DNA of 64,000 nt from an uncultured Eisenbergiella sp. (GTDB taxonomy: Bacteria > Bacillota > Clostridia > Lachnospirales > Lachnospiraceae): assembly GCA_947598825.1 (NCBI GenBank), contig CANQFM010000010.1:1-64000 (forward strand), given 5' to 3'. Positions 5,407 to 45,825 of this stretch are shown one piece after another. How positions within the stretch are numbered: the first letter of the stretch is position 1; every line of letters begins with the position of its first letter. The position numbers were made by a program, and so were the translations under genes. Below the pieces are notes generated by a model, which saw only the letters and a program-made list of their open reading frames with translations, did no database searches and had not been told where the DNA came from.

Positions 5407-7121
5407 TATGGACAGCGTTCTTTGAAAAATCTGACGGCGATCCCGATCCCGCCAAGCAGGAACAGAAACGAGAGGATCGTAAGCGGCACTGCGGCAGCGG
5501 AGAAAGCCGGGGAGGAAGTTTGTGCCGCAGCGGTTTCAAACTGCCGGTTTCGTTCCCACCCTCTGTTCTGGCCTGTTCCCATGGGAGTCTCCGGCATAAG
5601 CCCTCTGTCACGGTCTGTTCCCATGAAAGACTCCGATGCAGAGCCTCTGCCCTGGCCCGCTCCCGTGGGGGCCTCCGTCATAGGACCTCTGCCCTGGCCC
5701 GCGCCTGTGGGGTCGCCCGATACAGGACGGCCCTGCCGGGGGCCGTTCTGCCCCTGGAACCCCATCCGCATACCCGGTTTCGATCCCATGCCGGAGGAGG
5801 CGTTGTCAATAGTGATCTCTTCCTGGGCTTCACCGACGGAAAGCAGGTAGGTTTCTCCGATCTGCAATCCGGGAGCGCTCAGCGTGAGGGAAGAAAAGCC
5901 ATAGGGGATCGTCGCGGACAAAAGGACAGTGCCCTCCGGATCGGACAGCGTTACTTCTGTGTTTTCCTCCGCTGAAGTATTATACATATAAAAACCCTGT
6001 TCGGAAGAGGCGTCAAAGCCTTCGGCCATCATGCTGCCCCCTGCGGCGATGACCGTGCCGCCGCTGATCCTGCAGACGCCGCCGCTTTCGCTGCCGTAGT
6101 CGATGGCGCAGTTGCCGCCGCTTCCCACGACGCTGACGAAAAGGGAACCGCCGCTGATCAGGATATCGCCGTTGGAGTCCAGCCCGTCGGCATCCCGGCC
6201 TGTGGCGTTGCGGATCTCTATTTCGCCGCCCGTAATGCGGATCACAGCCTTGCTGCTGTCGCCGCCCGCGTTGATGCCGTCGTCTGTCGGGACGATGGAA
6301 AAGGATCCGCCGTCGATGGTAATGTCCGAGGCCTCGATACCTTCATAGCAGGAAGGGATCTCGATCCGGCCGGAGCGCGCGTAAAAGGAACCGGTCTGTT
6401 CGTCGTTGGATACGGTGATCCCGTCGTCCCCGGCGCAGATCGAAAGGGATGCATCGGCGATTCGGACGCTGTCGTGGGCGTGGATCCCATCCTGGATCGC
6501 AGTAACCTCGATCGTACCGCCCGTGATCGCCAGATCATCGTTGCAGACAATGCCGTGGCAAAGTCCGCCGGTGACGTTTAAAAGCCCGTTGCCGTTGATG
6601 GTCAGATCGTCCCGGGAATAAATGGCGCCGTCGATGTTGTTTTCCGTTGCTTCTTCCGCGTGTCCTGCGCCGGAAAGGATGCTGTTTTGGCTTTCGTCGG
6701 CCAGCGTCAGGAACACTTTTTTAGCCTGTTCTACTAACAGCGCCGCGCTTGTTTCGCAGCGCAGGGAGACGCCGTCTAAAAGCAGCCAGATCTGGTCGTT
6801 TTTGTCCGCGTCAAGGATCACGCTGCCGTCTTGCAGTTCCCCGGAGAGGATATATTTTCCCGCGCAGGAAATGTAGACGCTGCCGTCCTGGACATAGGCG
6901 CCGCTTCCCTGGATATCGGCTCTGTCCCCGGTCAGCAGGATCCGGGTGGCGTCGGAGGTGTCCCAGTCAAAACGCAGGTCGTCGGCCGTAAACGGACTGT
7001 CGGCGGCGCTGCCCGTTGTCTGAATCCCCAGTTTTTCCCCATTCATGAAAAGAAAAGTGAGAAGGAGCATGAAACCGGCAGCGACGCAGCAGACGAGGTT
7101 GATATATTTACTGGCGGCCAT
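5406..7121 (-). CDS. Carbohydrate-binding domain-containing protein (Cthe_2159-type beta-helix), membrane-anchored
   Basis: N-terminal TM, repeated beta-helix motifs (DGIxxxDxxxxxxGxxxI; GDDGI, DADGLDSNGDILISGG), Gly/Arg-rich linker, C-terminal TM; linked to DUF4956 and VTC genes. Confidence 0.85.
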   Translation of the reverse strand: MAASKYINLVCCVAAGFMLLLTFLFMNGEKLGIQTTGSAADSPFTADDLRFDWDTSDATRILLTGDRADIQGSGAYVQDGSVYISCAGKYILSGELQDGSVILDADKNDQIWLLLDGVSLRCETSAALLVEQAKKVFLTLADESQNSILSGAGHAEEATENNIDGAIYSRDDLTINGNGLLNVTGGLCHGIVCNDDLAITGGTIEVTAIQDGIHAHDSVRIADASLSICAGDDGITVSNDEQTGSFYARSGRIEIPSCYEGIEASDITIDGGSFSIVPTDDGINAGGDSSKAVIRITGGEIEIRNATGRDADGLDSNGDILISGGSLFVSVVGSGGNCAIDYGSESGGVCRISGGTVIAAGGSMMAEGFDASSEQGFYMYNTSAEENTEVTLSDPEGTVLLSATIPYGFSSLTLSAPGLQIGETYLLSVGEAQEEITIDNASSGMGSKPGMRMGFQGQNGPRQGRPVSGDPTGAGQGRGPMTEAPTGAGQGRGSASESFMGTDRDRGLMPETPMGTGQNRGWERNRQFETAAAQTSSPAFSAAAVPLTILSFLFLLGGIGIAVRFFKERCP

Positions 7122-7127
7122 TTTCGA

Positions 7128-7799
7128 TCACCCCGTATAGTCGCCGTTGTAGCTTACCAAAACGGCGCTCTGTACGCCGTCCATTTCGGAAAGCGTGTTG
7201 ATAAAGTCGGTATTGTCATCCTTCAGCCGGATCTCGAAGTTTAATTCGATCATTCCCTTTTGGGCGGATTTGCTTTTGACGACGCACCGACGCGTCATTT
7301 TTTCCAGGTATTGTCTGGCCGCAGTCTCATGCGGATGGCTGTCGCACTGCAGTACGACGATATAAGGGTTGCTGTGGGGCTGGCGGTTGACAAAGACCAG
7401 AAGGACGATGCCGATGATCACGCTGCCGATCACGGCCAGAGGGATCAGGCCGGCAGCCAGCACGATGCCCGCGGCGATCGCCCAGAATAAATAGGCGATG
7501 TCCAGGGGTTCTTTGATGGCCGTCCGGAAACGGACGATGGAAAGCGCGCCCACCATACCGAGGGACAGGACGATGTTGCTGGTGACGGCGAGGATGACTA
7601 GCGTGGTGATCATCGTCAGGGCCAGCAGGGTCACGCCGAAACCGGAGGAATACAGGACGCTCTGGCAGGTTCTCTTATAAACGAGAAAGATGAACAGGCC
7701 CAGGCAAAAGGACAGGATCAGGGCCAGCGCCATGTCCAGAACGCTGACAGCGGTCACATTTTCCAGAAAGCTGGATTTGAAAATATCCTGGAAGGTCAT
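7128..7799 (-). CDS. DUF4956 domain-containing membrane protein
   Basis: Multiple TMs and LGMVGALSIVRFRTAIKEPLDIAYLFWAIAAGI motif. Confidence 0.9.
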   Translation of the reverse strand: MTFQDIFKSSFLENVTAVSVLDMALALILSFCLGLFIFLVYKRTCQSVLYSSGFGVTLLALTMITTLVILAVTSNIVLSLGMVGALSIVRFRTAIKEPLDIAYLFWAIAAGIVLAAGLIPLAVIGSVIIGIVLLVFVNRQPHSNPYIVVLQCDSHPHETAARQYLEKMTRRCVVKSKSAQKGMIELNFEIRLKDDNTDFINTLSEMDGVQSAVLVSYNGDYTG

Positions 7800-38156: not shown

Positions 38157-39419
38157 ATGATCCTGATCAAAAACGGAATTGTGCTGACAATGACGGATGA
38201 GAAGCTGGGGCAGTCGAAGGACGGAAGGCTCGCGGGACAACGGCTTGATATTCTATGCAGCAACGGAAAGATCGAACAGATCGCGCCGGGCATCGAGCTG
38301 CCGGAAAGCGCGGAGGCCGAAGTGTTGGACGCCGCCGGCTGCATGGTAACGCCGGGGCTTATCGACGCTCACTGTCATGTGGGGATCACGGAAGAAAAAA
38401 AGGGCATGGAGGGCGATGACTGCAACGAAAATGTGGATCCTGTTACTCCATACCTGCGGGCGATCGACGCCATCAACACCATGGACGCCGCTTTCGACGA
38501 CGCGGTGAGGGCAGGAATCACCTCGCTGATGGCGGGCCCGGGCAGCTCCAACGTGGTGGGCGGGCAGTTTGTTTTTTTAAAGACCAAGGGCAGGCGCATC
38601 GACGATCTGATCGTCTGCGCGCCTGCGGCCATGAAGATCGCCTTCGGCGAAAACCCGAAGGTCAACTATTCGGGCATGGGAAAGAGCCCTGTCACCCGGA
38701 TGGCCATCGCGGGCATGCTCCGCCGGGAACTGTTCGCCGCCCAGAAGTATTGCAGGGAGAGGGCCGGCGGGCGGACGGCGGCGGATCGGGTGGTACAGTC
38801 CGGCGGGGTCGGATCGGATGTAGTCTGCCGGGCGGAGGATGCGCCCGCCAATACCGCGCCGGATTTCGATCTGGAGCCTTGGGTGCCCGTTTTTGCCCGG
38901 CAGATTCCTTTAAAAGCCCATGTGCATCGGGTGGACGACATTTTTACCGCCATCCGCATCGCCAAGGAATATGGCCTTCGCATGACGCTGGATCATTGCA
39001 GCGAGGGGCATCTGATCGCGGAAGAGATCGCCGCCAGCGGTTTTCCGGCTATTGTGGGGCCAGATCTTTCCAGCCGCAGCAAGATCGAGATCCAGAACGT
39101 GGATTTTAAAACCTCCGGCGTCCTTCAGAAAGCCGGTGTGATGGTGGCGATCTGCACGGATCATCCCGTTTCCACGATCCAGTCCCTGCCGCTGTGCGCG
39201 GGCCTGGCGGTGAAAGCGGGGCTGCCCATGTATGCGGGTCTGGAAGCGATCACCTGCAGCGCGGCGAAGATCTGCGGCGTCTACGACCGGGTGGGAAGCC
39301 TGGAAAGGGGCAAGGATGCGGATATTGCGGTTTTTACGGGAAATCCCATGGAGGTTTTTTCGCAGGTGCGCTATACCGTTATCGACGGACGTCTGGCCTA
39401 TCGCCAGGATCGGCCATAG
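38157..39419 (+). CDS. Amidohydrolase family protein
   Basis: GCMVTPGLIDAHCHVG, AHVHRVDDI, TDHPVST, DADIAVFTGNPME. Confidence 0.9.
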   Translation: MILIKNGIVLTMTDEKLGQSKDGRLAGQRLDILCSNGKIEQIAPGIELPESAEAEVLDAAGCMVTPGLIDAHCHVGITEEKKGMEGDDCNENVDPVTPYLRAIDAINTMDAAFDDAVRAGITSLMAGPGSSNVVGGQFVFLKTKGRRIDDLIVCAPAAMKIAFGENPKVNYSGMGKSPVTRMAIAGMLRRELFAAQKYCRERAGGRTAADRVVQSGGVGSDVVCRAEDAPANTAPDFDLEPWVPVFARQIPLKAHVHRVDDIFTAIRIAKEYGLRMTLDHCSEGHLIAEEIAASGFPAIVGPDLSSRSKIEIQNVDFKTSGVLQKAGVMVAICTDHPVSTIQSLPLCAGLAVKAGLPMYAGLEAITCSAAKICGVYDRVGSLERGKDADIAVFTGNPMEVFSQVRYTVIDGRLAYRQDRP

Positions 39420-39481: not shown

Positions 39482-40696
39482 TTAGTGGCGCTGCGCCCCA
39501 TCTTTTTGTGCTGCGGATCTGAAACGATGGCTGCCGCAAAGAAGGATCCCGGAAAGCAGCAGGAGCGGGAAAACGGCGCCCGCTAAAATACCCAGTTTCA
39601 GACGATCGCCAAACGCCCCCGATACCAGCCCGACTAACGTGGGTCCTCCCGCGCAGCCTATGTCGCCGCCCAGCGCCAGGAGTGCGAACATGGCCGTACC
39701 TTCCTTTGGCAAAGCCGCCGATGCCTTGCTGAAAGTCCCGGGCCACATGATCCCCACTGAAAGGCCGCAGAGAGCGCAGGCGATCAGGCTAAGCTGCGGG
39801 ACAGGCGCAAAGCAGATCGCCAGGTAGGAGAAAATACACAGGATACAACTGTACATCATAAAGCGATCCAGATGGATGTGATCGCCGAATTTTCCATAAA
39901 ACGCCCTTGACAGGCCCATCAAAACGGCAAACGACATCGGGCCGGCCAGGTCCCCCGCCGCTTTTGAGATCCCAAGCCCTTTTTCCGCAAAGGTCGAGGC
40001 CCATTGGCTGACGGATTGTTCGCTTGCCCCCGCGCATACCATCATGATCAGTAAAATCCAGAAGATCCTCATATGAAACAGCTCTTTGGGCTTTTGCCCC
40101 GATCCGCCCTCTCCGGTCAGCGGCGCAATCGGGACTTTTGTAAATACGGCCGCATTGCAAATGGGAATGAGCGCCCAGATCACCGCAAGGATCTTCCAGT
40201 TGTCAATGCCGACGGTATAAAAGAACAGGGTCGAGAGCAGTACGACTCCCGCGTGTCCCCAGCAGTAAAAGGAGTGGAGCATGCTCATCGCTTTTTCCTT
40301 ATTTTCGGAGGGGCACGCCTCCACGACCGGGCTGACGAGAACCTCCAATAAGCCGCCGCCGACCGCATAAACCATTACGGCGGTCAGGATACCGGGAAAG
40401 GGGAGCGGAAAGAGATCCGGCAAAACCGCAAGGAGCAGCAGACCGGCCGCGGATAAAATATGGGCCAGGACCATGGACGCCCGATATCCTATTTTATCCA
40501 CAAATCCGACAGAGAGAAGATCCACCAATAGCTGCAGCCCAAAATTGAAGGTTACCAACAGCGTGATCTGGGAGAGGGGGATATGATAATGCTGTTGGAA
40601 GAACAGGAATAAAAGGGGCGCAAAGTTGTTGACGATAGCCTGCACGATATAGCCTGTAAAGCAGGCCCTGACGGTTGTATCATATTGGTGTTTCAT
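39482..40696 (-). CDS. MFS transporter
   Basis: 12 TM, LFLFFQQHYHIPLSQITLLVTFNFGLQLLVDLLSVGFVDKIGYR. ATG 40696 is 8 nt from GGAGG. Confidence 0.85.
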   Translation of the reverse strand: MKHQYDTTVRACFTGYIVQAIVNNFAPLLFLFFQQHYHIPLSQITLLVTFNFGLQLLVDLLSVGFVDKIGYRASMVLAHILSAAGLLLLAVLPDLFPLPFPGILTAVMVYAVGGGLLEVLVSPVVEACPSENKEKAMSMLHSFYCWGHAGVVLLSTLFFYTVGIDNWKILAVIWALIPICNAAVFTKVPIAPLTGEGGSGQKPKELFHMRIFWILLIMMVCAGASEQSVSQWASTFAEKGLGISKAAGDLAGPMSFAVLMGLSRAFYGKFGDHIHLDRFMMYSCILCIFSYLAICFAPVPQLSLIACALCGLSVGIMWPGTFSKASAALPKEGTAMFALLALGGDIGCAGGPTLVGLVSGAFGDRLKLGILAGAVFPLLLLSGILLCGSHRFRSAAQKDGAQRH

Positions 40697-40878
40697 TCGC
40701 ATTTCCTCCGTATCGAAATGGTATTTTATCACACAATCGGTATCCTGTCATCGGGTAATTTTCGTAAAACAAAGAAACTATACGAAACTTTCGGAAAATC
40801 AGTTGTGTTTTCGCTATGGGGATGATAAGATGAAAATGACAGGAATACGCCTGAGAGAAGGGAGACAAGGAGGGAAAC

Positions 40879-41778
40879 ATGCGATTTGATCATCGGGAAG
40901 ACGTCATTGCGCTCACGCCGCTGTGGACCGGGGAACGGCTGCCGGACGGGCGGCCCTGGGTGCCGGACACGGTTCTGGAGCGGATCCGCCACATCACGCT
41001 GGAGGAGGCCTGGGGATATCTCTGGAACGAAGGATACCAGTTCCAGTTTCAGGGAGAATTTAAGCAGACCAATCCCGGCAAAACCCTGGTAGGGCGGGCG
41101 GTTACCACGAGTTTCGTACCGCTGCGGCCCGATCTGCACAATTGCACCCTGGATTATGGACATGAGAAAGAGGGGCGCAAGGGCTATTATAACCAGTGGG
41201 TCATCGATACGCTCCGGGAGGACGATGTGGTGGTGGTGGATCTATTCGACAAGATCTGGAAGGGCACCTATGTGGGGGGCAATCTGTCTACGGCCATCGC
41301 CAACCGGACGAAACGGGGCGGCGCCGTGATCTGGGGCGGTATCCGGGACATGGAGCAGATCGTGAAGATCCCGAATCTGCAGGTCATGCACCGGGGCAAC
41401 GATCCCACAGGCATCGGCGATGTGGTCATGACGGGATTTAACGGGCCCTGCCGCATTGGACAGGCCACCTGCCTGCCCGGGGATGTGGTGCTGGGCACCA
41501 TTTCAGGCGTTATTTTCATCCCCGCCCACCTGGCGGAGCAGGTGGTGACGAGGGCGGAAAAGAGCCATATTCGGGATGTGTTCGGTTTTATGCGGCTGCG
41601 GGACGGCACCTATACCACGGCGCAGATCGACACCGCCTGGACGCTGCCCATGATGGAGGATTTTGTGGACTGGTTTAAAAAAGCGCCGGAGGCGCAGGCT
41701 TTTTCCTATCTTACCTGGGAGGAAGAACTAAAAGAGGCGCGCAAGGCCAGCGAAAATTCCAGCCAGGTGCGGCTGTAG
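40879..41778 (+). CDS. RraA-like / pyruvate-aldolase-fold family protein
   Basis: GTYVGGNLSTAIANRTKRGGAVIWGGIRDMEQI; CLPGDVVLGTISGVIFIPAHLAEQV. Confidence 0.85.
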   Translation: MRFDHREDVIALTPLWTGERLPDGRPWVPDTVLERIRHITLEEAWGYLWNEGYQFQFQGEFKQTNPGKTLVGRAVTTSFVPLRPDLHNCTLDYGHEKEGRKGYYNQWVIDTLREDDVVVVDLFDKIWKGTYVGGNLSTAIANRTKRGGAVIWGGIRDMEQIVKIPNLQVMHRGNDPTGIGDVVMTGFNGPCRIGQATCLPGDVVLGTISGVIFIPAHLAEQVVTRAEKSHIRDVFGFMRLRDGTYTTAQIDTAWTLPMMEDFVDWFKKAPEAQAFSYLTWEEELKEARKASENSSQVRL

Positions 41779-41822: not shown

Positions 41823-43190
41823 ATGGAATCCATTTTATCGCCTGACATCAATACATGTTCTACACCGTCGGAACTGAAGATCACGGATATGCGTTTCTGC
41901 GATGTACAGGGGCTTCCCATGCACTGCATCCTGATGAAGATCTATACCAATCAGGGCATCGTGGGCTATGGGGAGGTCCGGGATTTTGCCAGCAAACGCT
42001 ATGCGCTGCAGTTAAAGCGCATCCTTTTGGGGGAGAATCCCTGCAACGTGGACAAGATCTTCCGGCGCATCAAGCAGTTTGGCGGCCAGTCCCGTCAGGG
42101 CGGCGGCGTTTCCGGCGTGGAAGTGGCCCTGTGGGATCTGGCGGGAAAGGCCTACGGGCAGCCTGTTTATCGCCTGCTGGGCGGAAAATTCAGGGATAAG
42201 ATCCGGATGTACTGCGATACGGACGTGGAGGGCAAACATACCGGCAAGGATATGGGCCGTGCGCTTCTGGCACGCATGGAAAAGGGCTATACCTTTTTAA
42301 AGATGGATCTGGGCCTCGGCATTTTAAAGGACGTGCCGGGGGCGGTCAGCGCTCCGCTGGGCTTTATGGAGGAACTGCCGGCCCTCTGGGAAAAGCGCAG
42401 GGCCGCGGAAGCGGCGGGGGACAGGGAACTGGCCCGCTATCTGGAAAACCGGATCTATGACTATCACAATATCGCCCATCCTTTCACCGGGATCCATGTG
42501 ACAGAGCTGGGCTTCGATGTGCTGGAGCAGTATGTGAAGGATGTGCGGGAGACGATCGGATACGAAGTGCCGCTGGCCATCGACCATTTTGGCCACATCG
42601 GCCTGGAGGACTCCATTAAGCTCTGCCGCCGCATTGAAAAGTATAATCTGGCCTGGGCGGAGGATTTGATCCCCTGGCAGTTGACGGATCAGTACGCGAT
42701 GCTCAGACGCAGCACCACCGTGCCGATCTGTACCGGTGAGGACATTTATCTGAAAGAGAATTTCCTTCCGCTTCTGAAAGCAGGCGGCGTTTCCGTCATC
42801 CATCCGGATGTGCTTACGGCCGGTGGGATCCTGGAGCTGAAAAAGATCAGCGATCTGGCGGCGGATTACGGAACGGCCATGGCGGTCCATATGGCGGAAA
42901 GTCCTATCGGTTGTCTGGCAGCGGTACACGCGGCGGCGTCCTGCGAGAACTTCCTGGCGCTGGAATACCACTCCGTGGACGTGCCCGACTGGTGCGATAT
43001 CTATGACGATAAGCTGCCGAAGCCTCTGGTGCAGGACGGCTACATTACAGTGCCCGATCTGCCGGGGCTGGGCATTGAAACCTTAAACGACGAGGTGCTT
43101 AAGGCCCATATCCATCCGAGGATTCCGGGCATGTGGGAGCCTACGGATCTCTGGAACGAAGACGTAGTGGAAGACCGTCTGTGGAGCTGA
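41823..43190 (+). CDS. Mandelate racemase/muconate lactonizing enzyme family protein (putative sugar-acid dehydratase)
   Basis: SGVEVALWDLAGKAYGQPVYRLLGG; KMDLG; AIDHFGH; WAEDLIPW; CTGEDIY; VHMAESPIG. Confidence 0.9.
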   Translation: MESILSPDINTCSTPSELKITDMRFCDVQGLPMHCILMKIYTNQGIVGYGEVRDFASKRYALQLKRILLGENPCNVDKIFRRIKQFGGQSRQGGGVSGVEVALWDLAGKAYGQPVYRLLGGKFRDKIRMYCDTDVEGKHTGKDMGRALLARMEKGYTFLKMDLGLGILKDVPGAVSAPLGFMEELPALWEKRRAAEAAGDRELARYLENRIYDYHNIAHPFTGIHVTELGFDVLEQYVKDVRETIGYEVPLAIDHFGHIGLEDSIKLCRRIEKYNLAWAEDLIPWQLTDQYAMLRRSTTVPICTGEDIYLKENFLPLLKAGGVSVIHPDVLTAGGILELKKISDLAADYGTAMAVHMAESPIGCLAAVHAAASCENFLALEYHSVDVPDWCDIYDDKLPKPLVQDGYITVPDLPGLGIETLNDEVLKAHIHPRIPGMWEPTDLWNEDVVEDRLWS

Positions 43191-43232: not shown

Positions 43233-43928
43233 ATGAAATCTGTGCTTATCACGGATCCGGCCCATCCGGCCGCCGAAGCTGTGATCCGGCGGCTGGAGGC
43301 AGAGGGGTACCGCGTCTTTTCGGGAGGGGATTTTTCCTCCCGGGAGGGGGTGCATGCCAGCATTGCAAGGACCGGCCCGGTGGATGCGCTCATTATTTCG
43401 GGACACAGAGGGGACGTCCAACTGCTTTCTCAGGGGGACGTAAGCAGGATCGTCCGTGCGGGACAGGCAAACATCATGGAAGCGTTTTATGCGGTCCGGC
43501 ACTACGCCGCGCTCATGGCCCAACGCGGCAGCGGCGTTATCCTGTTTTTATCTTCGGCCCACGCGGCCAAGCCCACCGGCGCCAATCCCGCCTATGCCAT
43601 TTCCCAGAGCGCCCTGGAGATGTTCATGAAGGAGGTGGCGCTGGATTACGGCCATGCGGGAGTCCGTGCGAATCTGATCCGGCTTGGCCCCATGGAGGAG
43701 GAAGCGGCGGAATTTGACTCTCTGCTTTCGCCAGCGGATTATGAGGCGGCTTCCAAAAGTCCCATCGGCCGGCGCAGCACGGCTCAGGACGCCGCGGGTA
43801 TGGCAGCCTTTCTGCTTTCGCCGGAGGCGGCTGGTATCAACGGCGCGGCCCTGGATGTGGACGGCGGGCTGTACTTCCATTATCTTGACCGGGACTTCGC
43901 CTTCAGAAAGGAGGAGGACCTGCCATGA
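43233..43928 (+). CDS. SDR family protein with degenerate cofactor and catalytic motifs
   Basis: SDR fold cues (FLSSAHAAKPTGANPAYAISQSALEMFMKEVALDYG...VRANLI; GINGAALDVDGG), but TGxxxGxG is replaced by TDPAHPAAEA and YxxxK by YAISQ. Confidence 0.82.
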   Translation: MKSVLITDPAHPAAEAVIRRLEAEGYRVFSGGDFSSREGVHASIARTGPVDALIISGHRGDVQLLSQGDVSRIVRAGQANIMEAFYAVRHYAALMAQRGSGVILFLSSAHAAKPTGANPAYAISQSALEMFMKEVALDYGHAGVRANLIRLGPMEEEAAEFDSLLSPADYEAASKSPIGRRSTAQDAAGMAAFLLSPEAAGINGAALDVDGGLYFHYLDRDFAFRKEEDLP

Positions 43929-44761
43929 TTCAAAAAAGGATCGATCACTATGCGGAGGCTTTTTTGCGGGAAGCGGAGAGGCTTCCGTCAGGAAGCAGGG
44001 AGCCACTTCTCAAGGGGCGCCGGGCCATCGTTACCGGAGGCGGCAAGGGCATCGGCAAGGGCATTACGCTGCGGCTGGCGGCGGCGGGAGCGGATGTGCT
44101 GATCTGCGGCTGCGGCAATATGGAAATGGCGGAGGAGACGGCGCAGGAGGCCCGCAGCCTGGGCGTCCGGGCGAAGGCTTTTTGTGCCGATCTGGCCCGG
44201 GAGGACGCGGCAGACCGGATCGTGCAGGAGGCGGCCCGCTTTCTGGGGGGCGTGGATATCCTGGTATCCAACGCGGCCTACCAGCCCAATCTGGATCTGC
44301 AGGATTATACGCCGGAGCGGTTTGAAAAGGTGCTGCAGATCAATCTCTGGTCCCCGGTGCGTCTGGTATCGGCCTGCGTTCCGTATCTGCGTCAGAGCGG
44401 CCACGGACGGATCATCCTGATCTCCTCCATTCACGGGAAACGGCCCTCCGGCTTTGACATCGCCTATGCCACCTCCAAGGGCGGGATCCAGATGCTCATG
44501 CGGGAAGCGGCCCTGGAGCTGCGCAGGGATGAGATCACGGTGAACGCGATCCTGCCGGGCGGCACCCATGTGGAATTTAAGAGCGGGGAAACCTTTCAGA
44601 TGCCCCATAAGCGGGTGAAGAGGGAGCGGGAATACGAGAGGGCCTTCGGCACCGGATCTCCCAGCGACAGCGGGAATCTGGCGGTGTTTCTGGCCAGCGA
44701 TATGGCGTCCTACATCACCGGGACATCGATCCGGGTAGACGGCGGGATCGTGTTGTTTTGA
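43925..44761 (+). CDS. SDR family oxidoreductase (intact motifs)
   Basis: RAIVTGGGKGIGKGITLRLAAAG; NAAYQ; ISSIHGKRPSGFDIAYATSKGG; ATGA overlap with preceding SDR. Confidence 0.92.
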   Translation: MIQKRIDHYAEAFLREAERLPSGSREPLLKGRRAIVTGGGKGIGKGITLRLAAAGADVLICGCGNMEMAEETAQEARSLGVRAKAFCADLAREDAADRIVQEAARFLGGVDILVSNAAYQPNLDLQDYTPERFEKVLQINLWSPVRLVSACVPYLRQSGHGRIILISSIHGKRPSGFDIAYATSKGGIQMLMREAALELRRDEITVNAILPGGTHVEFKSGETFQMPHKRVKREREYERAFGTGSPSDSGNLAVFLASDMASYITGTSIRVDGGIVLF

Positions 44762-44781: not shown

Positions 44782-45825
44782 ATGCCGGTCGTGAATCTTT
44801 TTATCGGAACTTATACCGGTGCCGCCGGAGGAAGAGGCGGCGACGGCATTTATACTTTTGGACTGGATACGGTTTCCGGCGCCCTTACGCTGCGGTCTGT
44901 CTGCAGGGAAACGGAGAACCCTTCTTTCCTTACGCGCAGAGGTGACGTGCTTTATGCCTGTGAAGAGCTTTCCAAAAGAAGCGCGGTGGCGGCTTTTCGC
45001 ATCCGGAAGCAGGGACAGCTTTTCCGGTTGGGGCGGACGGCGACAAAAGAAAGCGGGATGTGTCATGTGGCGCTTTGGCCTGCAGGCGATTTTCTGACCG
45101 CCTCCGATTTCGACAGCGCCAGTTTGGTGATCTTCCAATTGGAAAAGGATGGGAATATCGGGCCCGTCAGCCGGATTCTCCGGCATCAGGGGAGCGGCCC
45201 CCATCCGCAGATGCAGAGAAGCGCCCATGTGCATTCCGCGACTTTTCTGGGCGATGACGGCCACTTTTTGGTCTGCGATCTGGGAAACGATACCATGACC
45301 GTTTATCAGACGGCGGCGGATGGCAGCGTCCGGCTGATACAGACGGTGGCGGCAGCGCCCGGGGACGGCCCCCGTCACGCGGCCGTTTCGCCGGACGGGA
45401 AGAGCGTGACCGTCCTGATGCAGCTGTCCGGTTTCTGTGCGACCTACCGGATCGCGCCGGAGGGGCTGGGAGAACAGATCTCCCGGGTGAGTATGCTGCC
45501 GGAGGGCTTTACAGGCCGCAACGACGCTGCGGACGTGCATTATTCTCCTAACGGCAGGCACGTTTATGCCTCCAACCGGGGACACGACAGCATCGTGGTT
45601 TACGATGTGAAAAAAGACGGCGCGCTGGAACATGCCCGCTGGTTTCCTTCCTTTGGATCGGAACCCCGGCATTTTTGTATTCTGCCTGCCGGGGATATGG
45701 CGGTCATCACCAATCAGGCGACAGGGAATGTGGTCACCGTCCGTCTGGATCCCGTCACGGGAGATCTGGGCGAAAAGCTCTGCGAGGCATGCGTGCCCCA
45801 GGCCGTGTTTGCCGGCCTTTTTTAA
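44782..45825 (+). CDS. Lactonase family beta-propeller protein (6-phosphogluconolactonase-like)
   Basis: FIGTYTGAAGGRGGDGIYTFGLDTVSGAL; DLGNDTMTVYQ; GDGPRHAAVSPDGK; YASNRGHDSIVVY; EPRHFCI. RBS aaggagg. Confidence 0.9.
   Translation: MPVVNLFIGTYTGAAGGRGGDGIYTFGLDTVSGALTLRSVCRETENPSFLTRRGDVLYACEELSKRSAVAAFRIRKQGQLFRLGRTATKESGMCHVALWPAGDFLTASDFDSASLVIFQLEKDGNIGPVSRILRHQGSGPHPQMQRSAHVHSATFLGDDGHFLVCDLGNDTMTVYQTAADGSVRLIQTVAAAPGDGPRHAAVSPDGKSVTVLMQLSGFCATYRIAPEGLGEQISRVSMLPEGFTGRNDAADVHYSPNGRHVYASNRGHDSIVVYDVKKDGALEHARWFPSFGSEPRHFCILPAGDMAVITNQATGNVVTVRLDPVTGDLGEKLCEACVPQAVFAGLF

Follow-up and report, generated by a model that had tools for sequence, protein, structure and literature searches.

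A pseudo-SDR paired with an intact SDR in Clostridia as the probable non-cofactor-binding subunit of a putative heteromeric sugar or sugar-acid dehydrogenase

The window analyzed here is a 64,000-nucleotide stretch of DNA from an uncultured Eisenbergiella sp. of the Lachnospiraceae (assembly GCA_947598825.1, contig CANQFM010000010.1, positions 1 to 64,000). It carries two overlapping SDR genes, referred to as SDR1 and SDR2, among genes for putative sugar-acid enzymes. The features of the locus are as follows.

39482-40732, minus strand: MFS transporter
40879..41778, plus strand: RraA-like protein (Pfam RraA-like, 2e-14), found near 14 of the 18 SDR1 loci
41823..43190, plus strand: enolase-superfamily (MR_MLE) acid-sugar dehydratase-like protein (Pfam MR_MLE_C, 3e-45), found near 15 of the 18 SDR1 loci
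43233..43928, plus strand: SDR1, a pseudo-SDR of 231 aa (open reading frame; Pfam adh_short_C2, E = 8e-26; SDR-like AF2 model)
43251..43274, plus strand: destroyed glycine motif TDPAHPAA of SDR1 (from the sequence)
43323..43340, plus strand: approximate position at which alphaC-beta3 is missing from SDR1 (from residue spacing and the order of elements in the model)
43560..43574, plus strand: HAAKP, the HxxKP loop of SDR1, kept in 18/18 SDR1 with the counterpart HxxRP in 13/13 SDR2
43593..43607, plus strand: YAISQ at the YxxxK position of SDR1 (TAT GCC ATT TCC CAG)
43860..43883, plus strand: C-terminal DGGLYFHY of SDR1; Tyr217 in 16/17 SDR1, tail not in the SDR2s
43910..43917, plus strand: Shine-Dalgarno-like GGAGGAGG, inside SDR1 and 7 nt upstream of the SDR2 start
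43925..44761, plus strand: SDR2, an intact classical SDR of 278 aa and the presumed catalytic subunit (Pfam, 5e-49; glucose-1-dehydrogenase and FabG-type relatives in the PDB)
44033..44056, plus strand: glycine motif TGGGKGIG of SDR2 (Gly columns in 13/13 SDR2)
44465..44479, plus strand: catalytic motif YATSK of SDR2 (Y181 and K185 in 13/13 SDR2)
44782..45825, plus strand: 7-bladed lactonase directly downstream of SDR2 (Pfam Lactonase, 4e-82), also present in the same-genus genome G009

SDR2 has the features of a classical SDR, namely TGxxxGxG, an NAG-type motif (reading SNAA), the Ser and YxxxK, as judged from its sequence and the alignment of all 13 SDR2s. The junction between the two genes is AAAGGAGGAGGACCTGCC-ATGA, in which stop and start overlap. 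In SDR1 the three Gly of TGxxxGxG are replaced by D, P and A (TDPAHPAAEA, residues 7 to 16), and ISGHRG is found where NNAG would be expected, so that NNAG is lost too. A preliminary description of this DNA had reported the altered glycine and YAISQ motifs of SDR1, the intact motifs of SDR2 and the ATGA overlap, and the reading frames and motifs were found exactly as it gave them. The equivalents of N80, S108 and Y121 are kept in SDR1, the lysine being the only member of the catalytic tetrad that is gone.

Between G25, the Gly starting beta2, and D51, the Asp before beta4, SDR1 has 27 residues compared with 57 in SDR2. SDR1 was modeled with AF2 from an 18-row alignment (pLDDT 83.5, pTM 0.83), and the elements follow the order b1-aB-b2-aD-b4-aE-b5-aF-b6-aG-b7, in which alphaC and beta3 are absent; the C-terminal DGGxxxxY tail has low pLDDT in this monomer model. 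In SDRs, alphaC and beta3 form the part of the dinucleotide site that holds the adenosine. Since the glycine motif is lost and alphaC-beta3 is absent from the model, cofactor binding by SDR1 would not be expected. SDR1 is a true SDR homologue, with 29% identity to SDR2 over 153 aa, a Pfam match to adh_short_C2 and an SDR Rossmann fold that matches SDRs in a Foldseek comparison with the PDB (TM up to 0.80). Of the characters of a classical active SDR it lacks TGxxxGxG, YxxxK and a complete alphaC-beta3. It is nevertheless likely to be called an active oxidoreductase in genome annotation, which calls for caution.

SDR1 relatives were gathered by genus-to-phylum searches and by searches anchored on the neighboring enolase-like gene. 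Among the genomes sampled, 18 SDR1 loci were found in several families of the class, taken to be Clostridia from gene content and group structure: the window genome (G000), one genome of the same genus (G009), two of the same family (G125 and G111), and others in further families (G530, G568, G553, G641, G569, G547, G532, G748, G781, G1074, G1489, G761, G788 and G815). The pair is rare, occurring in 1 of 12 other genomes of the genus; in that genome SDR1 and SDR2 are 74% and 84% identical to those of the window. No SDR1 was found outside the class in a 399-genome sample of the phylum, and a phylum-level match from outside it (G1304) was rejected as an intact ordinary SDR. Scanning the genome's contigs with SDR1 alone returned only remote SDRs, and wide profile searches return mostly ordinary SDRs, their E-value tallies not being SDR1 counts. 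Elsewhere in the window's own genome (contig C32, locus L101, 4347-6712), three consecutive SDR genes lie in a cluster of polysaccharide or nucleotide-sugar type.

TGxxxGxG was intact in none of the 17 SDR1s that have an N terminus, while the YxxxK lysine was absent from 11 of the 18 and kept in 7. The sequences at the latter position are YAISQ, YSISQ, YACAK, YSAAK (2), YSLGC (2), YSCAM, YSTAK (3), YGISK, FGIAN, FSASM (2), HSLGC, YSMNC and FSLGC, so that the catalytic Tyr is Phe or His in 5/18. The preliminary description had reasoned that orthologues keeping both motifs would point to decay confined to one strain. No SDR1 keeping the glycine motif was found, and its loss in 17/17, together with TDPKHPAA and YSISQ in the same-genus pair, argues against a strain-specific event; YxxxK, on the other hand, is kept in some. 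Since the glycine motif is lost throughout and YxxxK is kept in seven, the dead cofactor site is, on the alignment, a trait common to SDR1s and the loss of the lysine a later and repeated one, for which the tree requires at least 4 changes; the seven lineages that keep YxxxK may have some activity. In 11/17 SDR1s the alphaC-beta3 region comprises only 27-33 residues and in the other six 48-52, compared with 55-59 in the SDR2s. H110, K113, P114 and E134 are invariant (18/18), with S108 in 15/18 and Y121 in 13/18. A FabI-type arrangement (Tyr-x6-Lys, YxxxxxxK) was considered for SDR1 and rejected, Lys being found at Tyr+7 in 0/18. The SDR1 of G1074 (L100, 1260-1991) reads FISEPTGPLG and FSASM and is without a Pfam match at E 0.001; it still keeps SIHDEKPT and adjoins an intact SDR2.

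The preliminary description had proposed a search for the same pairing in other genomes, and this search found SDR2 adjacent or fused to SDR1 at all 17 loci with DNA at that position, the remaining locus (G532) being cut by a contig end. Stop and start overlap at eight loci (G000, G009, G553, G748, G1074, G1489, G781 and G111), the genes are 2 nt apart at three (G815, G761 and G788), and longer spacers occur at three (G125, G641 and G568). At the other three, SDR1 and SDR2 form a single uninterrupted open reading frame (G530, 520 aa; G569, 507 aa; G547, 506 aa), and the tree requires at least two independent fusion events. For the G530 fusion, an AF2 model (pLDDT 72.9, pTM 0.78) was built without the single SDR1s, since these aligned onto the SDR2 half of the fusion; the N half had only 3 aligned rows. 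The best PDB match of this model was 2et6, with both SDR domains matched at once (TM 0.74, query normalized; rmsd 9.3; 568 columns), while single SDR chains gave TM 0.41-0.44 because they cover only one half of the fusion. The two halves of the model are thus arranged as an SDR pair; given the 3 rows and the rmsd of 9.3, this is to be read as supporting evidence and not as proof. A 736-aa open reading frame with a PHP-like N terminus and an M20 peptidase C terminus adjoins a fused SDR cassette (L060, 5911-8121).

In the tree, the 18 SDR1s and the 13 SDR2s each formed one clade with support of 100/100, and the two clades held among other SDRs (99 and 98 in two trees). In the trees with other SDRs, SDR1 and SDR2 lay on one side of a branch with support 0. 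The two share an HxxK/RP signature (His at Ser+2, Lys/Arg at Ser+5, Pro at Ser+6) found in 31/31 SDR1s and SDR2s versus 0/68 other SDRs, Met at Tyr+9 (30/31 versus 3/68) and Glu at Tyr+13 (31/31 versus 1/68). It is these signature residues that suggest a common tandem duplication as the possible origin of the pair. An intact SDR (6029-6817) followed by a degenerate one (6845-7612; ICGAGPVG and YATVT, without HxxKP) was also observed behind a carbohydrate kinase-like gene at locus L150 (G013:C250). This pair falls outside the SDR1 and SDR2 clades in the tree, so intact/degenerate SDR pairs may have more than one origin.

The dN/dS check for purifying selection that had been proposed was made by the Nei-Gojobori method. 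Comparing the window with G009, SDR1 gave 0.187, a rough value since synonymous sites are near saturation, SDR2 0.128, the enolase-like gene 0.061 and the lactonase 0.153; within the G761/G788/G815 trio SDR1 gave 0.12-0.15. SDR1 thus evolves faster than SDR2 and, by these ratios, is clearly under constraint. The earlier view that SDR1 is not a decaying pseudogene agrees with this ratio of about 0.19 and with a reading frame that is open at 18/18 loci.

The models closest to the enolase-superfamily protein of the window are acid-sugar dehydratases. An AGE-family-like epimerase is added at the f61 and G781 loci, and a GH5 enzyme or ABC sugar transporter at the f61 loci. The G125 pair has unrelated genes next to it. 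Other enolase-like loci (e.g., in G197, G143, G1483 and G807) are without the pair, which is therefore an optional module. Upstream of the cassette in the window is an amidohydrolase-family gene (38157-39419), a neighbor also kept in G009 (L064, 8539-9828). The non-phosphorylative route for L-rhamnose employs an SDR, a lactonase, an enolase-superfamily dehydratase and an aldolase. The same kinds of enzyme are found around SDR1/SDR2, with an RraA-like protein in place of the aldolase, but the rhamnose pathway has an ordinary SDR without a pseudo-partner. RraA-like proteins are known to take part in the chemistry of acid sugars, e.g., FlDet (PMC8563752). Among open-licence papers on enolase/RraA/SDR cassettes, none describing the present one was found.

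Taken with purifying selection, the strict pairing and the three single-frame fusions favor the proposal of the preliminary description that SDR1 is a non-catalytic partner subunit. We consider that SDR1 is probably a subunit that does not bind the cofactor in a putative heteromeric dehydrogenase of sugars or sugar acids, with SDR2 performing the chemistry. SDR1 and SDR2 would be the two subunits of one dehydrogenase, presumably associated as a heteromer in the cell, with NAD(P) bound by SDR2. SDR1 would have given up the dinucleotide site (the glycines, the lysine and, in this lineage, alphaC-beta3) while retaining what else belongs to the SDR core, most notably the beta5-alphaF loop and the helix at the interface. 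In SDRs alphaF is the interface helix, and the conservation in both partners of the segment comprising the beta5-alphaF loop and alphaF fits a role in assembly. SDR1 would then replace one protomer, a second catalytic subunit, in the dimer or tetramer that classical SDRs form, and might either stabilize SDR2 or complete its substrate pocket with the C-terminal tail carrying Tyr217. The DGGxxxxY tail is a candidate for reaching the SDR2 pocket, a hypothesis we put forward only tentatively. Judging from the gene neighbors, the substrate may be an aldose or sugar acid, oxidized in a non-phosphorylative route together with the lactonase, the enolase-superfamily dehydratase and the RraA-like protein.

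Alternatively, SDR1 might act apart from SDR2, either as a cofactor-free enzyme or as a protein that binds sugar acids, the candidates being an isomerase, a dehydratase or a sensor that relies on the Ser, His, Lys and Glu it has kept, with the tandem arrangement serving operon coexpression only. The invariance of H110, K113, P114 and E134 and the frequent retention of S108 and Y121 would suit such a function, but the same H, K/R, P and E are invariant in the NAD-dependent SDR2, so they more likely represent a shared structural element; an independent protein would, moreover, need neither repeated fusion nor strict pairing, and we regard this explanation as unlikely. Less probable again, and in our view very unlikely, is that SDR1 continues to work as an NAD(P) dehydrogenase whose cofactor site is atypical, like that of the divergent (FabI-type) SDRs. 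The seven SDR1s with YxxxK and the six with a near-full-length alphaC-beta3 could be read in this way, but none of the 17 has the glycine motif, the SDR1 of the window is some 30 residues short in the adenosine-binding region, and the catalytic Tyr is replaced in five.

It could also be supposed that SDR1 is a decaying pseudogene retained for the translational coupling of SDR2, whose ribosome-binding site lies in the end of SDR1. The ATGA overlap, the internal GGAGGAGG and the faster evolution of SDR1 are what such a relic might exhibit. Against this are the low dN/dS at a near-saturated synonymous distance, the frame that has stayed open across several families, and the three fusions, in which SDR1 is an in-frame N-terminal domain and coupling is not needed; this explanation, already disfavored, is scarcely credible. 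The subunit role of SDR1 beside a catalytic SDR2 is thus the explanation we prefer.

The BbsCD enzyme of anaerobic toluene degradation acts on CoA thioesters, and we know of no gene fusion or missing alphaC-beta3 in it. SDR1/SDR2 differs from it in pathway, in the missing subdomain and in the natural fusions. Candida tropicalis MFE-2 (2et6) has two SDR domains on one chain, as does the SDR1-SDR2 fusion, but both of its domains are active dehydrogenases, whereas in the SDR1 half of the fusion the cofactor site is gone. Human mitochondrial HSD17B8/CBR4 ketoacyl reductase, a eukaryotic enzyme of fatty-acid synthesis, is a heterotetramer of two different SDRs, with cofactor sites kept in both subunits, unlike SDR1. 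BbsCD itself is described as an SDR heterotetramer that includes inactive pseudoenzyme subunits (doi 10.1111/febs.16216, as cited in PMC10818641), and bbsC and bbsD are adjacent and were amplified as one bbsCD fragment (PMC10818641). As far as these descriptions go, adjacent genes and one subunit without a cofactor site are common to both systems, and SDR1/SDR2, if the heteromer is real, would act like BbsCD. In the open-licence papers on SDR pseudoenzymes, inactive SDR subunits were hardly documented, BbsCD being the only case found. By this comparison a heteromer of a pseudoenzyme and an active SDR would already be known, and what would be new is a clade distinct in its pathway, its loss of a subdomain and its fusions.

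It is possible, though we advance it as speculation, that these proteins represent an undescribed family of sugar or sugar-acid dehydrogenases in Clostridia that are hetero-oligomeric. The family would have begun with a pseudo-SDR that lost its cofactor site and afterwards its adenosine-binding subdomain as well; this protein would complete the active site of its partner in trans, would have become joined to that partner by gene fusion on more than one occasion, and would determine the specificity of an oxidative acid-sugar route. The clade offers 18 natural cases within a single lineage with graded loss, of the glycine motif in all and of the lysine and alphaC-beta3 in some, as well as at least two fusions. 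It lets experiment ask for what an enzyme fold is kept after catalysis is lost, provides a handle on how obligate heteromers arise after duplication, and, as a conserved SDR1/SDR2 cassette, presents a target for enzymology.
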